Below are positions 2,621 through 9,341 of a stretch of 9,341 nt of DNA, in pieces (within the stretch, counting starts at the first letter, position 1; every line of letters begins with the position of its first letter). This DNA comes from Candidatus Zhuqueibacterota bacterium (GTDB lineage: Bacteria; BS750m-G25), in assembly GCA_016783505.1 (NCBI GenBank), contig JADHWK010000072.1, positions 1 to 9,341 on the forward strand. Reading direction: 5' to 3'. The translations under genes and the position numbers were made by a program. The notes beneath the pieces were generated by a model. The model was not told the origin of the DNA. It searched no databases and saw only the letters and a list, made by a program, of their open reading frames with translations.

Positions 2621-2962
2621 ATGAAACCAAAAAATTCAATGAATACAACTAAAACCCGGGAAGGAAGATATCTTTTAAAATTTTCCTTCCTGATCGTTGC
2701 GATTTTCTACCTATCCATATCTTTATTTCTGCCCTTTCTTCACAACCATCCTCATGATAATGGAGAATTTCATGACAATTGTCCCGCCTGCCACTTGGAG
2801 CGTCCATCCCAGTTCTGCAATGATGATCCGGATCAGACTCAAGATTTTATCATTTTGACCAACAAATCATTTATCCGCTTTTCCCTAATCAATACTTACC
2901 TATTTACCCCCCAATTTTACCACCAAAGCCTTTCCACTCGTGCCCCGCCCTTAGCCGCCTGA
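2621..2962 (+). CDS. Small membrane-anchored His/Cys protein, possible metal handling
   Basis: The product is 113 residues. A basic N-terminus is followed by one hydrophobic helix (about 20-40), then a cluster of possible metal ligands: HNHPH (41-45), His51, CPACH (54-58) and Cys66. The tail ends in STRAPPLAA. This layout (one helix, a His/Cys motif, a C-terminal R-[AG]-P-P) resembles small DUF2946-like proteins found near metal transport genes. That is a resemblance from memory, not a search result. CPACH also matches the CXXCH haem-attachment motif, so a tiny c-type cytochrome is an alternative. The HxHPH run and metal-transport neighbours make metal binding the better guess. The start is uncertain: the ribosome binding site is weak, and a second ATG lies at 2639. 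It is the first gene of a co-directional block running to 8715. Confidence 0.7.
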   Translation: MKPKNSMNTTKTREGRYLLKFSFLIVAIFYLSISLFLPFLHNHPHDNGEFHDNCPACHLERPSQFCNDDPDQTQDFIILTNKSFIRFSLINTYLFTPQFYHQSLSTRAPPLAA

Positions 2963-3147
2963 TCCCCATTTTGTAAACAAGATTTCTACCTGATGTCCTT
3001 ATTGTGAGATCGTCAAACAAGTCTCGGCTGGATTGGCATACTACCAGAACGACTTTTTCAGTAATCAGATTTACCGATTGATTCCTACAACCATTTTTTA
3101 TTGTAAAATTAATATTATGAAATCATACTTTGAAAAAGAGATGAAAA
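2963..3147. promoter_or_regulatory. 185-base intergenic region, AT-rich at its 3' end
   Basis: The second half is A+T-rich and could hold a promoter for the porin gene. The only symmetry I see is GTAA-N6-TTAC near 3061-3074, too short to call an operator. There is no terminator-like hairpin after the upstream gene, so read-through is possible. Confidence 0.3.
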
Positions 3148-4434
3148 GTGAATATCAATAATAAAAAGTCAATATTCATAATTATTAGTTTTGTTTTATT
3201 TTCAATGAATTTAAGTATTGCATTTTCATGTAATTTAGCAGATTTCTTATTTAACAGAAGTTATTTAACTAGACAGTGGAAAGGTTATCGCCCGAAATTG
3301 GAAGATATGGGTATTATTTTTAATTTGGATTATACAAGCGATCTATTTTCTAATGTATCTGGTGGTCTTAATTCAAAATCGGTATATCTTGATAATATAG
3401 ATATTACGCTTTCTCTCGAAATGGAAAAGTTAACAGGCTGGAAAGGAACTGACCTCTATTTTTACATTCTGGGAAACCATGGAAAAAGCCCAAGCGAACT
3501 GACAGGTGATATTCAGGCTTTAAGTAATATTGATGCTTATAATACCTGGAAATTATATGAAGCCTGGATTCAAAATAAATTTTTAAATGATAGGACATCT
3601 ATTTTAACAGGTCTCTATGACTTAAATTCTGAATTCGATGTTATCGAGACCGCAGGATTATTTATTAATAGCTCCCATGGTATAGGACCTGATTTTTCGC
3701 AAAGTGGAAAGAATGGCCCGTCAATCTTTCCAACCACGTCTGTTGGTTTACGTATTAAATTTGTACTCAATGAAAAATACTATTTTCAATTTGCTGTTTT
3801 AGATGGTGTACCGGGTGACCCTGAAAATCCCAACGGTACTCACATTATTTTCAGGAAAGGAGATGGCCTTCTTCTCGCCAGTGAATGGAAGTATTGTCTA
3901 CAAAGTAGTGAATCTTCTGAAGTCAATTCTACAAAAATTGCAATTGGAGGATGGTACTATACCGGAATGTTTAATCATATTTTTAGGGAAAATATACAGG
4001 GAAAACCTGTTAACCAGACAGGCAATTATGGTATGTATATATTAGGCGAAACCAAAATATTTTCGGAAACGAGTTCTTTAAACCAGGGAGTTTCAATATT
4101 TTCCCGGTTTGGTTTCGCTGATCCGAAAGTGAATCAGTTTCATTACTATTTTGGAGGAGGTTTTGTATATAACGGGTTAATACCTGGACGAAACGAAGAT
4201 AAATTAGGTCTGGCTATAGCGACTGTGATAAACGGGGAAAACTTTAAGAAGATGAATTATCAATCCGGTAATACCGTGGATGATTTTGAAACTGCTGTGG
4301 AATTTACTTATCTGTTCTTACTTTCTCCTTGTCTTTCACTGCAGCCTGACATTCAATATATTATCAATCCTTCAATGGACAAAAAAATAAATAACGCTTT
4401 AGCAATCGGATGCCGGTTTATACTTTTGTTTTGA
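3148..4434 (+). CDS. OprB-like outer-membrane porin
   Basis: The product is 428 residues from a GTG start. This start gives a full signal peptide with KK at 6-7 and a hydrophobic core to about residue 26, whereas the next in-frame ATG (residue 20) would cut it off. The mature part is rich in alternating hydrophobic and polar strands and ends in a terminal Phe (ILLF), the usual signal for barrel assembly. RPKLEDMGIIF (48-58), a GG at 72-73, GDIQALSNIDAYNTWKLYEAW (120-140) and LTGLYDLN (153-160) follow the order of motifs in the carbohydrate-selective porin family OprB. OprB members pass sugars or other small solutes; here, beside a metal transporter, metal or metal-chelate passage is an inference. 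The gene is clearly more A+T-rich than those on either side. The next gene begins 46 bases downstream, suggesting co-transcription. Confidence 0.8.
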   Translation: MNINNKKSIFIIISFVLFSMNLSIAFSCNLADFLFNRSYLTRQWKGYRPKLEDMGIIFNLDYTSDLFSNVSGGLNSKSVYLDNIDITLSLEMEKLTGWKGTDLYFYILGNHGKSPSELTGDIQALSNIDAYNTWKLYEAWIQNKFLNDRTSILTGLYDLNSEFDVIETAGLFINSSHGIGPDFSQSGKNGPSIFPTTSVGLRIKFVLNEKYYFQFAVLDGVPGDPENPNGTHIIFRKGDGLLLASEWKYCLQSSESSEVNSTKIAIGGWYYTGMFNHIFRENIQGKPVNQTGNYGMYILGETKIFSETSSLNQGVSIFSRFGFADPKVNQFHYYFGGGFVYNGLIPGRNEDKLGLAIATVINGENFKKMNYQSGNTVDDFETAVEFTYLFLLSPCLSLQPDIQYIINPSMDKKINNALAIGCRFILLF

Positions 4435-4480
4435 GATTTAAAAAGATATTCATAATTATTTTATTCTAAAGGAGACAACC

Positions 4481-5827
4481 ATGAAAGCCTTTGGACCAAA
4501 ACTATCCCTACTGTTCTTCCTGAGCCTTGCTACCTTAACCACTGCCCAGGAATCGAGCAACCCCAAAAGCATCAAGGAAGTTAATAGGGATCTGACAAAG
4601 CTCAAAGAAGAACTAAATGGACTGAAAAACGACTACCAGGCAAAGATTGAAGAGCTTAGTGAGAAAATCAGTCAACTGGAAAAAACCAAAGCCGCAGAAG
4701 AGGAGAAAACCGAATTGGAAAAGCTGCTCAATTCGGCTCGAGATTTTGCTAAAAGAGAAAAAGAGGAAGAGGTCACTATCGCAAGAGTTTTCCGAGGAGG
4801 TCAGAGGCAGCTTCAAGCTCTTAATCCCAACATCAGCATGACCGGGGATTTTTATGGAAGCATAAGCAATGTTAGTTCTATACACCATGAACACGAAGAT
4901 GAAAATAATCATGTTCATGCTCATGGGATCGTGGAGCGAAACCGATTCGCCCTCAGGGAAGCGGAATTTCACATCATAGCGCCGCTTGACCCCTTTACCC
5001 GGGGTAAATTCTTTCTCGGGGTCCCCGGGGACGGTAATCTTCATGTGTGCGAGGCCTACATGGAGTGGTTAAACCTACCAGCAAGGATGAATCTCAAGAT
5101 AGGCAAGTTCAACACTCAATTCGGCATTCTCAATCGCTGGCACGATCATGGTCTGCCGCAGATTGATAGGCCACGGGCCCTTATCAATTTGTTTGCCGGC
5201 AGTCTTAACGGCGTTGGAGTTTCAGCGAACTTCTTATTGCCCAAGCTCTGGGCCCATGTCAACGAGCTGGATCTGGAGGTCGTGACCGGTGGAGACGGCG
5301 TGAGCTTTGATACCGCCTATGACAATGTTATAATCGTCTCTCATTTAAAAAATTATTATGACCTGACCCGGAATACCTATCTGGAAATCGGTCTCTCTGG
5401 CGCTCACGGCTGCAACGATAAGGAAAATGACTACAGAACATTTTTAGCCGCCCTGGATATGACTTACAAGTGGGTTCCGGCCGGACGGTCTCACTATCGA
5501 ACCGTAGAATTCCGCAACGAGTTTTTTTATAGCCACAGGGAGGCTCCCACGGAAAACATCAATCGAATCGGTTTCTATTCCTACATCTCAAACAGGATGG
5601 GAGCAAGTTTCTGGACGGGTGTCCGTTACGGCTATTCGGAATTGCCAAGAGAGATTGAGAAAGATTATGAATGGGACATATCTCCTTACATTGACTTCTG
5701 GCAGAGCGAGTTTGTGATGATGCGGCTACAATATAGTTACACCTATCGGAACTATGCGGAAAACGATCATTCCGTTTTTCTTCAGTCGGTCTGGTCTATG
5801 GGACCACACAAACATGAGGCTTATTAA
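4481..5827 (+). CDS. Coiled-coil outer-membrane barrel protein with a His-rich loop
   Basis: The product is 448 residues from an ATG with AAAGGAGA nine bases upstream. It has a signal peptide (cleavage probably after TTAQ, residue 23), then a long charged heptad-like segment (about 30-100) predicted to form a coiled coil. A beta-rich region begins at ALNPNISMTGDF (113-124). Residues 135-148 carry seven histidines among acidic residues (HHEHEDENNHVHAH), an obvious divalent-metal binding stretch. Further clusters are RWHDHG (219-224) and a GPHKHEAY tail. Segments such as RMNLKIGKFNTQFG look like porin strands. I recall similar barrels beside zinc ABC transporters in several phyla but know no established name. 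The likely role is passage or capture of zinc or manganese at the outer membrane. The substrate is inferred from the His loop and the binding-protein gene 136 bases downstream. Confidence 0.78.
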   Translation: MKAFGPKLSLLFFLSLATLTTAQESSNPKSIKEVNRDLTKLKEELNGLKNDYQAKIEELSEKISQLEKTKAAEEEKTELEKLLNSARDFAKREKEEEVTIARVFRGGQRQLQALNPNISMTGDFYGSISNVSSIHHEHEDENNHVHAHGIVERNRFALREAEFHIIAPLDPFTRGKFFLGVPGDGNLHVCEAYMEWLNLPARMNLKIGKFNTQFGILNRWHDHGLPQIDRPRALINLFAGSLNGVGVSANFLLPKLWAHVNELDLEVVTGGDGVSFDTAYDNVIIVSHLKNYYDLTRNTYLEIGLSGAHGCNDKENDYRTFLAALDMTYKWVPAGRSHYRTVEFRNEFFYSHREAPTENINRIGFYSYISNRMGASFWTGVRYGYSELPREIEKDYEWDISPYIDFWQSEFVMMRLQYSYTYRNYAENDHSVFLQSVWSMGPHKHEAY

Positions 5828-5885
5828 CAGAACACGGTTGCGCAATAATACCAATTTTTAAAAAAGAAGTAATCGAATGGAGTGT

Positions 5886-5910
5886 TGGTGTAAAATGATA
5901 CCTTATACCA
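5886..5910. promoter_or_regulatory. Candidate operator TGGTGTAA-N9-TTATACCA
   Basis: The 8-bp arms (5886-5893 and 5903-5910) match as reverse complements at seven of eight positions. A third half-site, GATACC, lies between them. The site is 54-78 bases upstream of the binding-protein start, where a metal-responsive repressor (Zur-, MntR- or Fur-type) could act. It does not match any Zur or MntR consensus that I know, so the assignment rests only on symmetry and position. Confidence 0.35.
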
Positions 5911-5963
5911 GATGGTTGTTCGATTTGTAGAAATTCCATGACATAAAAGAAAGGAGCATTGAA

Positions 5964-7034
5964 ATGAAGAATATCAAATTACTAGCTTTGATAGGTTGTT
6001 CGCTTCTGTTGGTGTTATCGAGTATCTTCGCCGGGTCTAACGATCCTAAAACTAAGCCCGCGCTGAGGGTGGTCACCTCTTTTTCCGATTATGCCTCCAT
6101 TGCTCATGAAATAGGCAGGGAGAAGGTGATGGTGGAGTATCTCTCTTATGGGGATCAGGATCCTCACTTTGTTCCTCCGAAGCCCAGCTTGGCTCTGAAG
6201 CTGAAAGACGCGGATTTATTTGTCACCACCGGACTGGATTTGGAAATGTGGGCGACTACTCTTTTGGATAAGGCCCGCAATAAAAAGATTATGGACGGCG
6301 CCTTCGGCTATGTGACGGCCTATCCTGGCATCAAGCTTTTGCAAAAATCAACCACCGCGCTGAGTCGAACCGAGGGGGATATTCACATCTACGGGAATCC
6401 CCACATTCACACCAGCCCCATGAATTGGAAGCCCATTTCCGAAAACATCCTCATCGGGCTGAAGAAAGTGGATCCTGATAATTCAGAATACTATGAGCTA
6501 AGACAAAGGGCTTTCGTTGACAGAGTCGATCGCGCCATGTTTGGGGACGAATTGGATGATTTGATCGGTGGAGAAAGGTTAACTGATTTAGTCCTGGCAG
6601 GGACTCTTTTTGATTTCCTGGAGAAAGAATACAGGGGCAAAAAATTGCTGAACAAATTGGGTGGGTGGCTAAAGAAGGCTCTCCCCTTTCGGGGCAAAAA
6701 GGTCATGGCCTACCATAAGAATTGGGCCTATTTTGCTCGGGATTTCGGACTAACCGTAATCGGCTATATTGAACCAAAACCGGGAATTCCCCCCACACCG
6801 AAGCATGTACAGCGAACCATTAGTCTGATTAAAGAACACGGCGTCGATGTCATGCTGGTAGCGAGCTATTTTGAAAGAAGGAAGCCCAACACGATAGCCC
6901 GAAAAACGGGTGTGAAAGCCCTCTTCTTGCCCCTTTCGGTGGGTGGGATTCCAGAAGTTTCGGATAATTTCAAGCTTATTGATTACTGGATTGATAGCAT
7001 CAATGATGCCATGGAAAGACCATTCAGCGAATAA
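5964..7034 (+). CDS. Metal ABC transporter substrate-binding protein (ZnuA/TroA family)
   Basis: The product is 356 residues from an ATG preceded by AAAGGAG. A signal peptide ends near residue 23; an LIGC at 9-12 looks like a lipobox but sits too early in the hydrophobic core. This is a cluster A-I periplasmic binding protein that captures Zn2+ or Mn2+. Expected ligands are visible: His68 in GDQDPHFVPP, a His at 147 or 149 in GNPHIHTSP (family pattern DPH-W-DP), and His251 in AYHKNWAYFARDFGL. The usual late acidic ligand, in an L-D-P-L context, is replaced by FLPLSVGG (321-328), which has no acid. Glu304 or the HIH cluster might complete the site. The segment between the second and third ligands (about 150-245) is long and highly charged. 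The permease genes begin 24 bases downstream, so this is the periplasmic partner of that transporter. Confidence 0.92.
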   Translation: MKNIKLLALIGCSLLLVLSSIFAGSNDPKTKPALRVVTSFSDYASIAHEIGREKVMVEYLSYGDQDPHFVPPKPSLALKLKDADLFVTTGLDLEMWATTLLDKARNKKIMDGAFGYVTAYPGIKLLQKSTTALSRTEGDIHIYGNPHIHTSPMNWKPISENILIGLKKVDPDNSEYYELRQRAFVDRVDRAMFGDELDDLIGGERLTDLVLAGTLFDFLEKEYRGKKLLNKLGGWLKKALPFRGKKVMAYHKNWAYFARDFGLTVIGYIEPKPGIPPTPKHVQRTISLIKEHGVDVMLVASYFERRKPNTIARKTGVKALFLPLSVGGIPEVSDNFKLIDYWIDSINDAMERPFSE

Positions 7035-7058
7035 CTATCCTAAGATCAGGAGCAATCA

Positions 7059-7871
7059 ATGCTGGAAACTCTTAAATTTTTATCCATTCAGATTATACTG
7101 TTGACAGTCGTAACCTCTGTGCATACCTATCTGGGGCTTCACGTCATCCGGCGGGGGATCGTATTCTCCGACCTGTCCCTAGATCAGTTGGCGGCATTCG
7201 GCGTGATAGTAGGAATCAGCCTGGGTATAGAGGGCGGTACCACCGGATCCTATATTGTCTCTTTTGTTGCCGTACTGATGGGTTCCGTGCTGCTTGCTTA
7301 TGTGAAACCCAAGAACAAAATGATCCCCCAGGAGGCGGTCATCGGTATTATTTATGGCCTGGCCTTGGTTGCCTCTATCATGGTAGCCGACAAGTTCTCC
7401 GGCGGTTCGGCCTATGTCACCCAGATCTTGTCAGGCTGTATGCTCTGGGTGAGTTGGCCCCTGGTCCTGGTGACCGTTTTGGTCTATATCGTGTTATCCC
7501 TTTTTCTATATAAATATCGGAAAATATTCATCGCCATCACCGAAAAGACGGAAGAGGTGGATAACGAGAATTTTTGGGATCTATTATTTTTCATCTCCCT
7601 GGGCATCATTACGGTACTCATCGTTCCCATCGCCGGCGTTCTTTTGGCGTACGGCTTCTTAATGATCCCGGCGGCCATTGCCGCCCTTTTCACCAAAGGC
7701 TGGGCACAAGGGCTGAGAATCGGCTGGATCATTGGGTTTATTGCCTCCATGGTTGGCCTTTTCTCTTCTTATTTCTTTAAGCTACCTTATGGCCCCAGTC
7801 TGGTACTGGCTCTCGGAGCATTTTTTATTGGCGCGCTGATTCTACGCTATATGTTACCCGAACGGAAATAG
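7059..7871 (+). CDS. Metal ABC transporter permease, ABC-3 family (first of two)
   Basis: The product is 270 residues with about eight membrane helices, the normal size for ABC-3 permeases such as ZnuB, TroC and MntB. Family landmarks are in order: VFSDLSLDQLAAFG (35-48), MIPQEAVIGIIYGLA (about 88-102), QILSGCMLW (about 122-130), and the C-terminal IAGVLLAYGFLMIPAA segment that precedes the ATPase-coupling loop (ALFTKGW). It would form half of the inner-membrane channel with the next gene product. The start has AGGAG upstream and lies 24 bases after the binding-protein stop, and the next gene follows after 25 bases, so the three are surely co-transcribed. No ATPase gene accompanies them. Confidence 0.93.
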   Translation: MLETLKFLSIQIILLTVVTSVHTYLGLHVIRRGIVFSDLSLDQLAAFGVIVGISLGIEGGTTGSYIVSFVAVLMGSVLLAYVKPKNKMIPQEAVIGIIYGLALVASIMVADKFSGGSAYVTQILSGCMLWVSWPLVLVTVLVYIVLSLFLYKYRKIFIAITEKTEEVDNENFWDLLFFISLGIITVLIVPIAGVLLAYGFLMIPAAIAALFTKGWAQGLRIGWIIGFIASMVGLFSSYFFKLPYGPSLVLALGAFFIGALILRYMLPERK

Positions 7872-7896
7872 TTTGCTCACCGAAAGGACTTAAAAT

Positions 7897-8715
7897 ATGT
7901 GGGAAATAATTCAGTTCTTATTTCCGCCTTTTGTCGCCTGTCTAACTATGATAGTGATCTTTGGGTACCTAGGCATTCATGTTCTGGAAAGGGAAATCAT
8001 ATTCATAGATATCGCCCTGGCCCAGATTGCGGCGGTAGGTTCTACTTCGGCTTTTATTCTTTTTAGAACGGAAGAGCACAGCCTCATAGCCTATATCTGT
8101 GCCCTTGGCTTTTCTTTACTGGCAGCCGTTTTCTTCTCTCAAGTTGGAAAGAGGGTAACCCAAATTCCCCAGGAGGCGATAATAGGTGTTTCCTATGCAA
8201 TTGCTGCTGCCGCCGCTCTATTTCTCCTCGCTATGGCTGCTGGTGGGGATGTTCACCTTGAGCATATGCTCACCGGAAGTATACTCTGGGCCAAATGGTC
8301 TGATATTCTTCCATGTGCCGGAGTGTATGCTGCAGTTGGATTATTTCATTACATTTTTCGGGATAAATTCAGAAAAATATCCCGGGATTATCAGGGCGCC
8401 ATCAAAGAGGGAATCAAAGTTGGGCGGTGGGATTTTCTGTTCTATGCCTCTTTGGGAATTGTGGTCACATTTTCGATCCGGATTGCCGGAGTGCTGGTGG
8501 TATTTTCATTCCTGATTATCCCGGCGACTTTTGCGGCTATGTTTGCCCAAAGCTGGGGAAAAAGACTGACCATCGCCTGGGGTATCGGGTTAGCGGCCTC
8601 GATAGCAGGTCTGGCCTTCTCTTACCTCTTCGATTTCTCCAGCGGGCCCTCGGTGATTACATTCCTGGGATTGGCTCTGATCGTGACAGCTCTGGTGAAA
8701 CAGTCAAAGCCGTAA
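7897..8715 (+). CDS. Metal ABC transporter permease, ABC-3 family (second of two)
   Basis: The product is 272 residues with the same fold and landmarks as the preceding permease: IIFIDIALAQIAAVG (34-48), QIPQEAIIGVSYAIA, HMLTGSILW, and IAGVLVVFSFLIIPATFAAMFAQSW. The two proteins differ throughout, so this is an old paralogous pair rather than a recent duplication, as in TroC/TroD or MntC/MntD heterodimeric permeases. A GAAAGGA sequence lies upstream of the ATG. It is the last gene of the block; an intrinsic terminator lies about 60 bases after the stop. The ATP-binding subunit that would drive this channel is not in the window. Confidence 0.93.
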   Translation: MWEIIQFLFPPFVACLTMIVIFGYLGIHVLEREIIFIDIALAQIAAVGSTSAFILFRTEEHSLIAYICALGFSLLAAVFFSQVGKRVTQIPQEAIIGVSYAIAAAAALFLLAMAAGGDVHLEHMLTGSILWAKWSDILPCAGVYAAVGLFHYIFRDKFRKISRDYQGAIKEGIKVGRWDFLFYASLGIVVTFSIRIAGVLVVFSFLIIPATFAAMFAQSWGKRLTIAWGIGLAASIAGLAFSYLFDFSSGPSVITFLGLALIVTALVKQSKP

Positions 8716-8776: not shown

Positions 8777-8805
8777 AAAGCCGGGTCTCAAGCCCGGCTT
8801 TTTCC
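8777..8805 (+). terminator. Rho-independent terminator of the metal operon
   Basis: AAAGCCGGG (8777-8785) pairs perfectly with CCCGGCTTT (8793-8801) around a 7-base loop, and the strand continues as a T-rich run. It lies 61 bases after the second permease stop and closes the block that starts near 2621. The flanking A-run also allows some termination of transcripts arriving on the opposite strand. Confidence 0.93.
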
Positions 8806-9209: not shown

Positions 9210-9234
9210 TTATACGGCATTTTTAGACGTATAA
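9210..9234. repeat. Palindrome B: 9-7-9 with TTATACGGC arms, at the contig junction
   Basis: Arms TTATACGGC (9210-9218) and GACGTATAA (9226-9234) pair at eight of nine positions around the 7-base centre ATTTTTA. Arm length, centre length and arm sequence match palindrome A, so these are two copies of one kind of site. The boundary at which the contig repeats its start (9230/9231) falls inside the right arm. Inverted arms of about 9 bp around a 7-bp centre also describe core sites of many tyrosine recombinases, but no recombinase is encoded here. Confidence 0.75.
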
Positions 9235-9341
9235 GCCTAGAGAACCTCATTGCTTTAATTGTATGTTTTACAATTAGATGATTACCTATTTCGGTTAGTT
9301 TCTGTTTGGGTTTATACGGCCAGATTTGCCGTGTTTGGGAT
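9231..9341. repeat. Terminal direct repeat, right copy
   Basis: Exact copy of 1-111. If the molecule is circular, its unique length is 9,230 bp and base 9230 joins base 1. The join lies inside the right arm of a 9-7-9 palindrome at 9210-9234, and that palindrome stays intact in the closed form. Nothing in the window resembles a replication initiator, relaxase, partition gene, transposase or recombinase, so a free replicon is not supported by gene content. Confidence 0.95.

Follow-up and report, generated by a model that had tools for sequence, protein, structure and literature searches.

The window analysed here is one whole contig of 9,341 nt from a 60%-complete genome. ORF calling on the contig placed six co-directional genes between positions 2621 and 8715, in agreement with the initial annotation, and Pfam searches bore out the parts of an ABC-3 importer that it had named, a metal-binding protein and two permeases. 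Two features were absent from that account: the RAPP terminus of the 113-residue peptide that heads the locus, and the lack of a gene for an ABC ATPase. The locus is composed as follows:

2621..2962, + strand: leader ORF of 113 aa, with no Pfam or NCBIfam match
2873..2950, + strand: C>G bubble, a candidate Rho-utilisation region (78-nt span in which C minus G reaches its contig-wide maximum)
2963..3147, + strand: intergenic region of 185 nt, a candidate Rho termination zone of unremarkable structure
3148..4434, + strand: OprB-family porin (Pfam) with a GTG start and low GC, a probable insertion outside the conserved operon
4481..5827, + strand: barrel, uncharacterised and with no family match, in which a coiled coil is joined to a predicted 16-strand porin
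5964..7034, + strand: ZnuA-type metal-binding protein (Pfam), which by alignment keeps all three His positions known from zinc-binding ZnuA
7059..7871, + strand: ABC-3 permease 1 (Pfam), of a divergent subfamily
7897..8715, + strand: ABC-3 permease 2 (Pfam), of a divergent subfamily
8777..8801, no strand assigned: strong bidirectional intrinsic terminator that closes the operon (terminator search)

The Pfam E-values were 2e-56 for OprB, 4e-44 for ZnuA, and 3e-23 and 2e-30 for the two permeases; neither the barrel at 4481 nor the 113-aa peptide matched a family in the Pfam and NCBIfam searches, and no Rfam riboswitch was found in the window. Directly upstream, at 1152-2510, lies a TPR gene with a lipoprotein-like N-terminus, which is outside the conserved operon, since only one related locus has a match to it. 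The contig carries an identical 111-bp repeat at both ends (1-111 and 9231-9341), part of a dispersed double-hairpin element (GGTTTATACGGC...GTATAAACC) that recurs in diverged form at four further sites of the genome. These repeated ends probably reflect an assembly break at the repeat, a circular molecule being another possibility.

We sought the barrel in 58 distant genomes and found it in 11, in at least eight of which a ZnuA gene adjoins it. A scan of species genomes yielded 80 barrel loci, in records named as KSB1, Latescibacterota, Bacteroidota, Krumholzibacteriota, Glassbacteria, Calditrichia, Thermoanaerobaculia, Gemmatimonadota and unclassified bacteria. The scan profile was built from a three-member alignment, a nine-member alignment being too diverse for scanning contigs, and hits were required to contain MGPHKHE or EAYMEW-like peptides, which biases conservation at those two sites and leaves it unbiased at H221/H223 of the barrel. 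A ZnuA gene stands 3' of the barrel in 78 of the 80 loci, the remaining two contigs stopping first, and one or more permeases follow ZnuA wherever the contig runs on. Barrel, ZnuA-type binding protein and ABC-3 permease(s) are thus a conserved operon in at least six phyla, as the proposed tie between the barrel and the metal ABC genes had anticipated. Of the six families that the initial annotation had joined in one neighbourhood, the barrel, the leader ORF and the ABC genes do co-occur in relatives; the OprB porin does not, being found in 0/80 loci.

The OprB gene also differs in composition, with a GC content of 34% (27% at third codon positions) versus 47-49% in the downstream genes, and it has matches in four other genomes only, all of them weak. 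Among barrel loci it is confined to the genome of the window, and it is most simply explained as an insertion between leader and barrel. For these reasons (absence from the related loci, foreign composition and few, weak matches elsewhere) the suggestion of a two-porin arrangement fails, and the idea of a distinct outer-membrane metal route is left plausible for the conserved barrel alone.

The AlphaFold model of this barrel, obtained with 67 sequences (pLDDT 86, pTM 0.73), predicts an N-terminal coiled coil followed by a 16-stranded porin, and its fold matches include the porins OprP, DcaP and Vibrio OmpT. The likeness to these and to OprO is at the level of the fold, with an identity of ~10%, and neither the HxH motif nor the operon context of the window barrel is shared by them as far as known; a search of solved structures with the barrel profile returned no relative. 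TonB-dependent receptors of the ZnuD type have a plug domain and a 22-strand barrel, and no such features were found here, the barrel having no Pfam match and 16 predicted strands; a TonB-independent outer-membrane metal route is plausible. The histidine-rich loop HHEHEDENNHVHAH (barrel residues 135-148, 4883-4924), which had been singled out as the key feature, proved not to be conserved and lies in a disordered first loop. Instead, H221 and H223 (HxH, 5141-5149) are 99% conserved in 89 sequences and are located between predicted strands 5 and 6, the place of the constriction loop in 16-strand porins. A C-terminal GPHKHEAY (5801-5824) is also conserved, in part as an artefact, because the loci were found via that peptide, and it is present in most homologues found without the peptide filter as well.

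The two permeases form a subfamily separate from canonical ZnuB; members of the same subfamily with long C-terminal extensions occur at L075:10494-11822 and L077:6062-7492. No ABC ATPase was found on the contig or inside any of the 80 operons, nor was a ZnuC linked nearby, and in four chromosome-level Gemmatimonadota (L080, L081, L085 and L101) every ABC-3 permease belongs to a barrel operon that lacks an ATPase gene. Of six genomes examined, five encode a separate and complete canonical znu set elsewhere, so these permeases could draw on a shared ATPase. The sixth is a Gemmatimonadota chromosome, whose best AztA-like ATPase (L115) appears, by eye, to be part of a cobalamin/iron-type set. Compared with ZnuABC and ZnuD, the locus has the ZnuA-type binding protein and ABC-3 permeases in common and differs in having neither an ATPase gene nor a TonB-dependent receptor, as well as in its divergent permease subfamily. 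The zinc exoprotein system ZepA was checked as a lead and found to be unrelated.

The 113-aa peptide contains the motifs previously reported, HNHPH at residues 41-45 (2741-2755) and CPACH at residues 54-58 (2780-2794), together with an N-terminal hydrophobic segment judged by eye. It ends in STRAPPLAA, with RAPP (2939-2950) three residues from the end. A short ORF directly 5' of the barrel with [RH][AG]PP no more than eight residues from its stop was found in 65 of the 76 relatives with upstream sequence, as against 16 of 4,884 control ORFs (0.3%), giving a nominal binomial P of ~1e-117 that is uncorrected for kinship. Five further relatives have a looser or displaced motif (RSPP, KSPP, RGPP, HAPP), a recognised leader is missing in 6/76, and RAPP or RSPP is also present in homologues recovered when no pattern filter was applied; in viral contigs the leader peptide had no match. 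Apart from the metal motif and the C-terminal RAPP, very little of the leader sequence is conserved, yet the spacing between the two is fixed: CPAC and RAPP are exactly 49 residues apart in the window and eight relatives, with a linker of varying sequence; in Gemmatimonadota HDHxxC begins 51 residues before the motif (11/14 leaders); and in a group made up mainly of Bacteroidota and KSB1, HAHP precedes it by 69-77 residues, mostly 73-74. A nascent-chain sensor would be expected to need a linker of constant length and variable sequence, because the linker would span the ribosome exit tunnel. From the conservation of RAPP and the fixed spacing, we reread the peptide, originally considered a membrane-bound part of the transport machinery, as most likely an arrest-peptide leader with a regulatory role.

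RAPP and RGPP are demonstrated ribosome-stalling motifs; proteomes strongly avoid them, but small exported ORFs that precede other genes are enriched in them at their ends (PMC12992588, PMC10987492). In CruR of Bordetella pertussis, CXXC and RAPP are 45 residues apart with conserved spacing; in the absence of copper, ribosomes stall at RAPP and the operon is on, and with copper, sensing by CXXC relieves the stall and Rho then terminates transcription, RAPP being required for expression and a C>G bubble marking the Rho site (PMC9426467). As here, this short leader heads an operon with an outer-membrane metal transporter, and the two are alike in the distance from the cysteine metal motif to RAPP (45 residues versus 49 in the window), in their long intergenic regions (162 nt versus 185 nt) and in having a C>G bubble. 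They differ in that CruR serves copper and a TonB-dependent transporter, whereas the window has a zinc-type binding protein, a porin-like barrel and ABC-3 permeases, and in that the window leader adds HNHPH and comes from different phyla. Against the profile of DUF2946, the Pfam family of CruR, the window peptide gave no match at E<=10, only the distant relative L027 doing so at E 0.08; as the leader matches neither this nor another family, any homology to CruR is putative. Judging by sequence, then, the window leader is similar to CruR in its working parts and is not a member of CruR's Pfam family.

Other RAPP-type arrest peptides, such as ApdA and ApdP, are likewise small ORFs with a C-terminal RAPP/RGPP/HAPP-type motif directly upstream of the regulated genes, and they share the N-terminal localisation-type hydrophobic segment; the characterised ones act as monitors of Sec/YidC or lie ahead of copper genes and others, whereas leaders of the window type bear conserved metal motifs and stand ahead of zinc-type import genes (PMC10987492, PMC12992588). 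CutF-like proteins also combine a metal motif with a proline-rich C-terminus upstream of metal genes, some having His motifs only, ahead of HupE/UreJ; CutF itself differs in raising the expression of a copper oxidase, and Znu-type neighbours go unmentioned in the main text (PMC9973294). The word zinc is absent from the main texts of all four papers (PMC9426467, PMC12992588, PMC10987492 and PMC9973294), and a wider literature search, confined to text outside supplementary files, yielded no zinc-type arrest leader. In the literature searched, ribosome-stalling leader peptides that sense a transition metal are characterised for copper only.

Taken together, we favour the reading, with a probability of about 0.7, that the locus is an operon for zinc-type uptake, with a metal-sensing arrest-peptide leader at its head and Rho as the means of control. 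The stalling, the metal, the action of Rho, the transport and the use of an ATPase in trans are steps that we infer, and they would proceed as follows. When zinc is scarce, a ribosome translating the leader would stall at the C-terminal RAPP and bar Rho from the leader's C-rich 3' end, which would allow the operon to be transcribed. When the metal is plentiful, it would bind the nascent HNHPH/CPACH segment, ~50 residues back from the stall point, and the folding or pull of the metal-bound segment would release the ribosome, whereupon Rho would terminate transcription and the uptake genes would be off. As for transport, the outer-membrane pore would admit metal to the periplasm, where the ZnuA-type protein would capture it, and the two ABC-3 permeases would pass it inward by means of an ATPase encoded elsewhere. 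The inserted OprB gene, situated between leader and barrel, would share the control by the leader.

The mode of control could be a different one, resembling that of SecM or CutF, in which stalling at RAPP would let the ribosome open an mRNA helix that masks the start of the following gene, so that translation initiation is what is controlled; sensing could take place on the periplasmic side, during emergence of the nascent chain. Across 63 loci the leader stop region pairs with its own barrel start better than with the starts of other loci (KS P ~4e-6), with z below -2 in one third of them, though related loci are not independent, and several Bacteroidales show the stop codon linked with the barrel start in a clean helix. 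As far as such pairing can tell, its occurrence in many relatives suggests a SecM-like mode rather than Rho there. In the window, a start-hiding helix found no support: the leader end gave z values of +0.8 with the OprB start and +0.1 with the barrel start. This lack of pairing, the 185-nt intergenic region, which is not unusually structured, and the strong C>G bubble fit Rho instead. The bubble overlaps the 3' end of the leader ORF and its C-richness coincides with Pro and His codons, so it may be partly codon-driven; in 57% of 65 loci the corresponding bubble falls within the highest 5% for that locus. Hence, we rank Rho control first for the window, where the SecM-like mode is an unlikely though serious contender, and the family as a whole fits either mode.

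Zinc itself is the metal suggested by sequence, rather than Mn or Fe. The best solved relatives of the binding protein are zinc-binding ZnuA proteins, and all three of its histidines align with those of Synechocystis ZnuA (PDB 2ov1/1pq4), whereas in manganese binders the third of these positions is usually Glu. Import of another metal (Mn, Fe, Co or Cu) under the same leader logic is a little less probable again than the SecM-like mode, even though binding proteins of cluster A-I cover Zn, Mn and Fe and leaders of similar type are known for copper (PMC9426467). Far less probable than either is the initial view that the peptide is a membrane-bound, metal-binding component of uptake, for example a periplasmic carrier between the barrel and ZnuA, and that both porins take part. 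Its hydrophobic segment, its His/Cys motifs and its linkage to transport genes would suit such a role, but a sequence barely conserved outside motifs held at fixed spacing is what arrest leaders typically show and would be unexpected in a carrier, and all 80 relatives do without OprB.

Beyond the window, we advance more tentatively, at somewhat less than even odds, the view that zinc-responsive RAPP leaders (with CPAC, HAHP or HDHxxC according to clade) are widespread and control a TonB-independent zinc route consisting of a His-pair porin, a zinc-binding protein and ABC-3 permeases lacking a dedicated ATPase. Zinc import is usually described as being under the repressor Zur. If true, this view would mean that zinc is also controlled by a second route, acting at the ribosome, in six or more mostly uncultured phyla; it would give a likely job, that of a TonB-independent metal pore, to a barrel family absent from Pfam and NCBIfam; and it would prompt one to ask how an ABC-3 permease can function when it has no ATPase of its own.

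Several related loci showed variations on the operon. One Gemmatimonadota genome (L081:3770-11158) carries the barrel-ZnuA-permease set twice in tandem, the second permease ORF being seemingly split. Upstream of another barrel operon (L022:2247-4788) we noted, by eye, a LolD-like ATPase, an FtsX-like permease and a DUF3299-like gene, which we take to recall the Zrg/PA4063-4066 zinc genes, and a probable lipoprotein, coiled-coil and His-rich (HEEHGEEREEHSHEHGHEE), lies ahead of ZnuA at L027:5667-6308.
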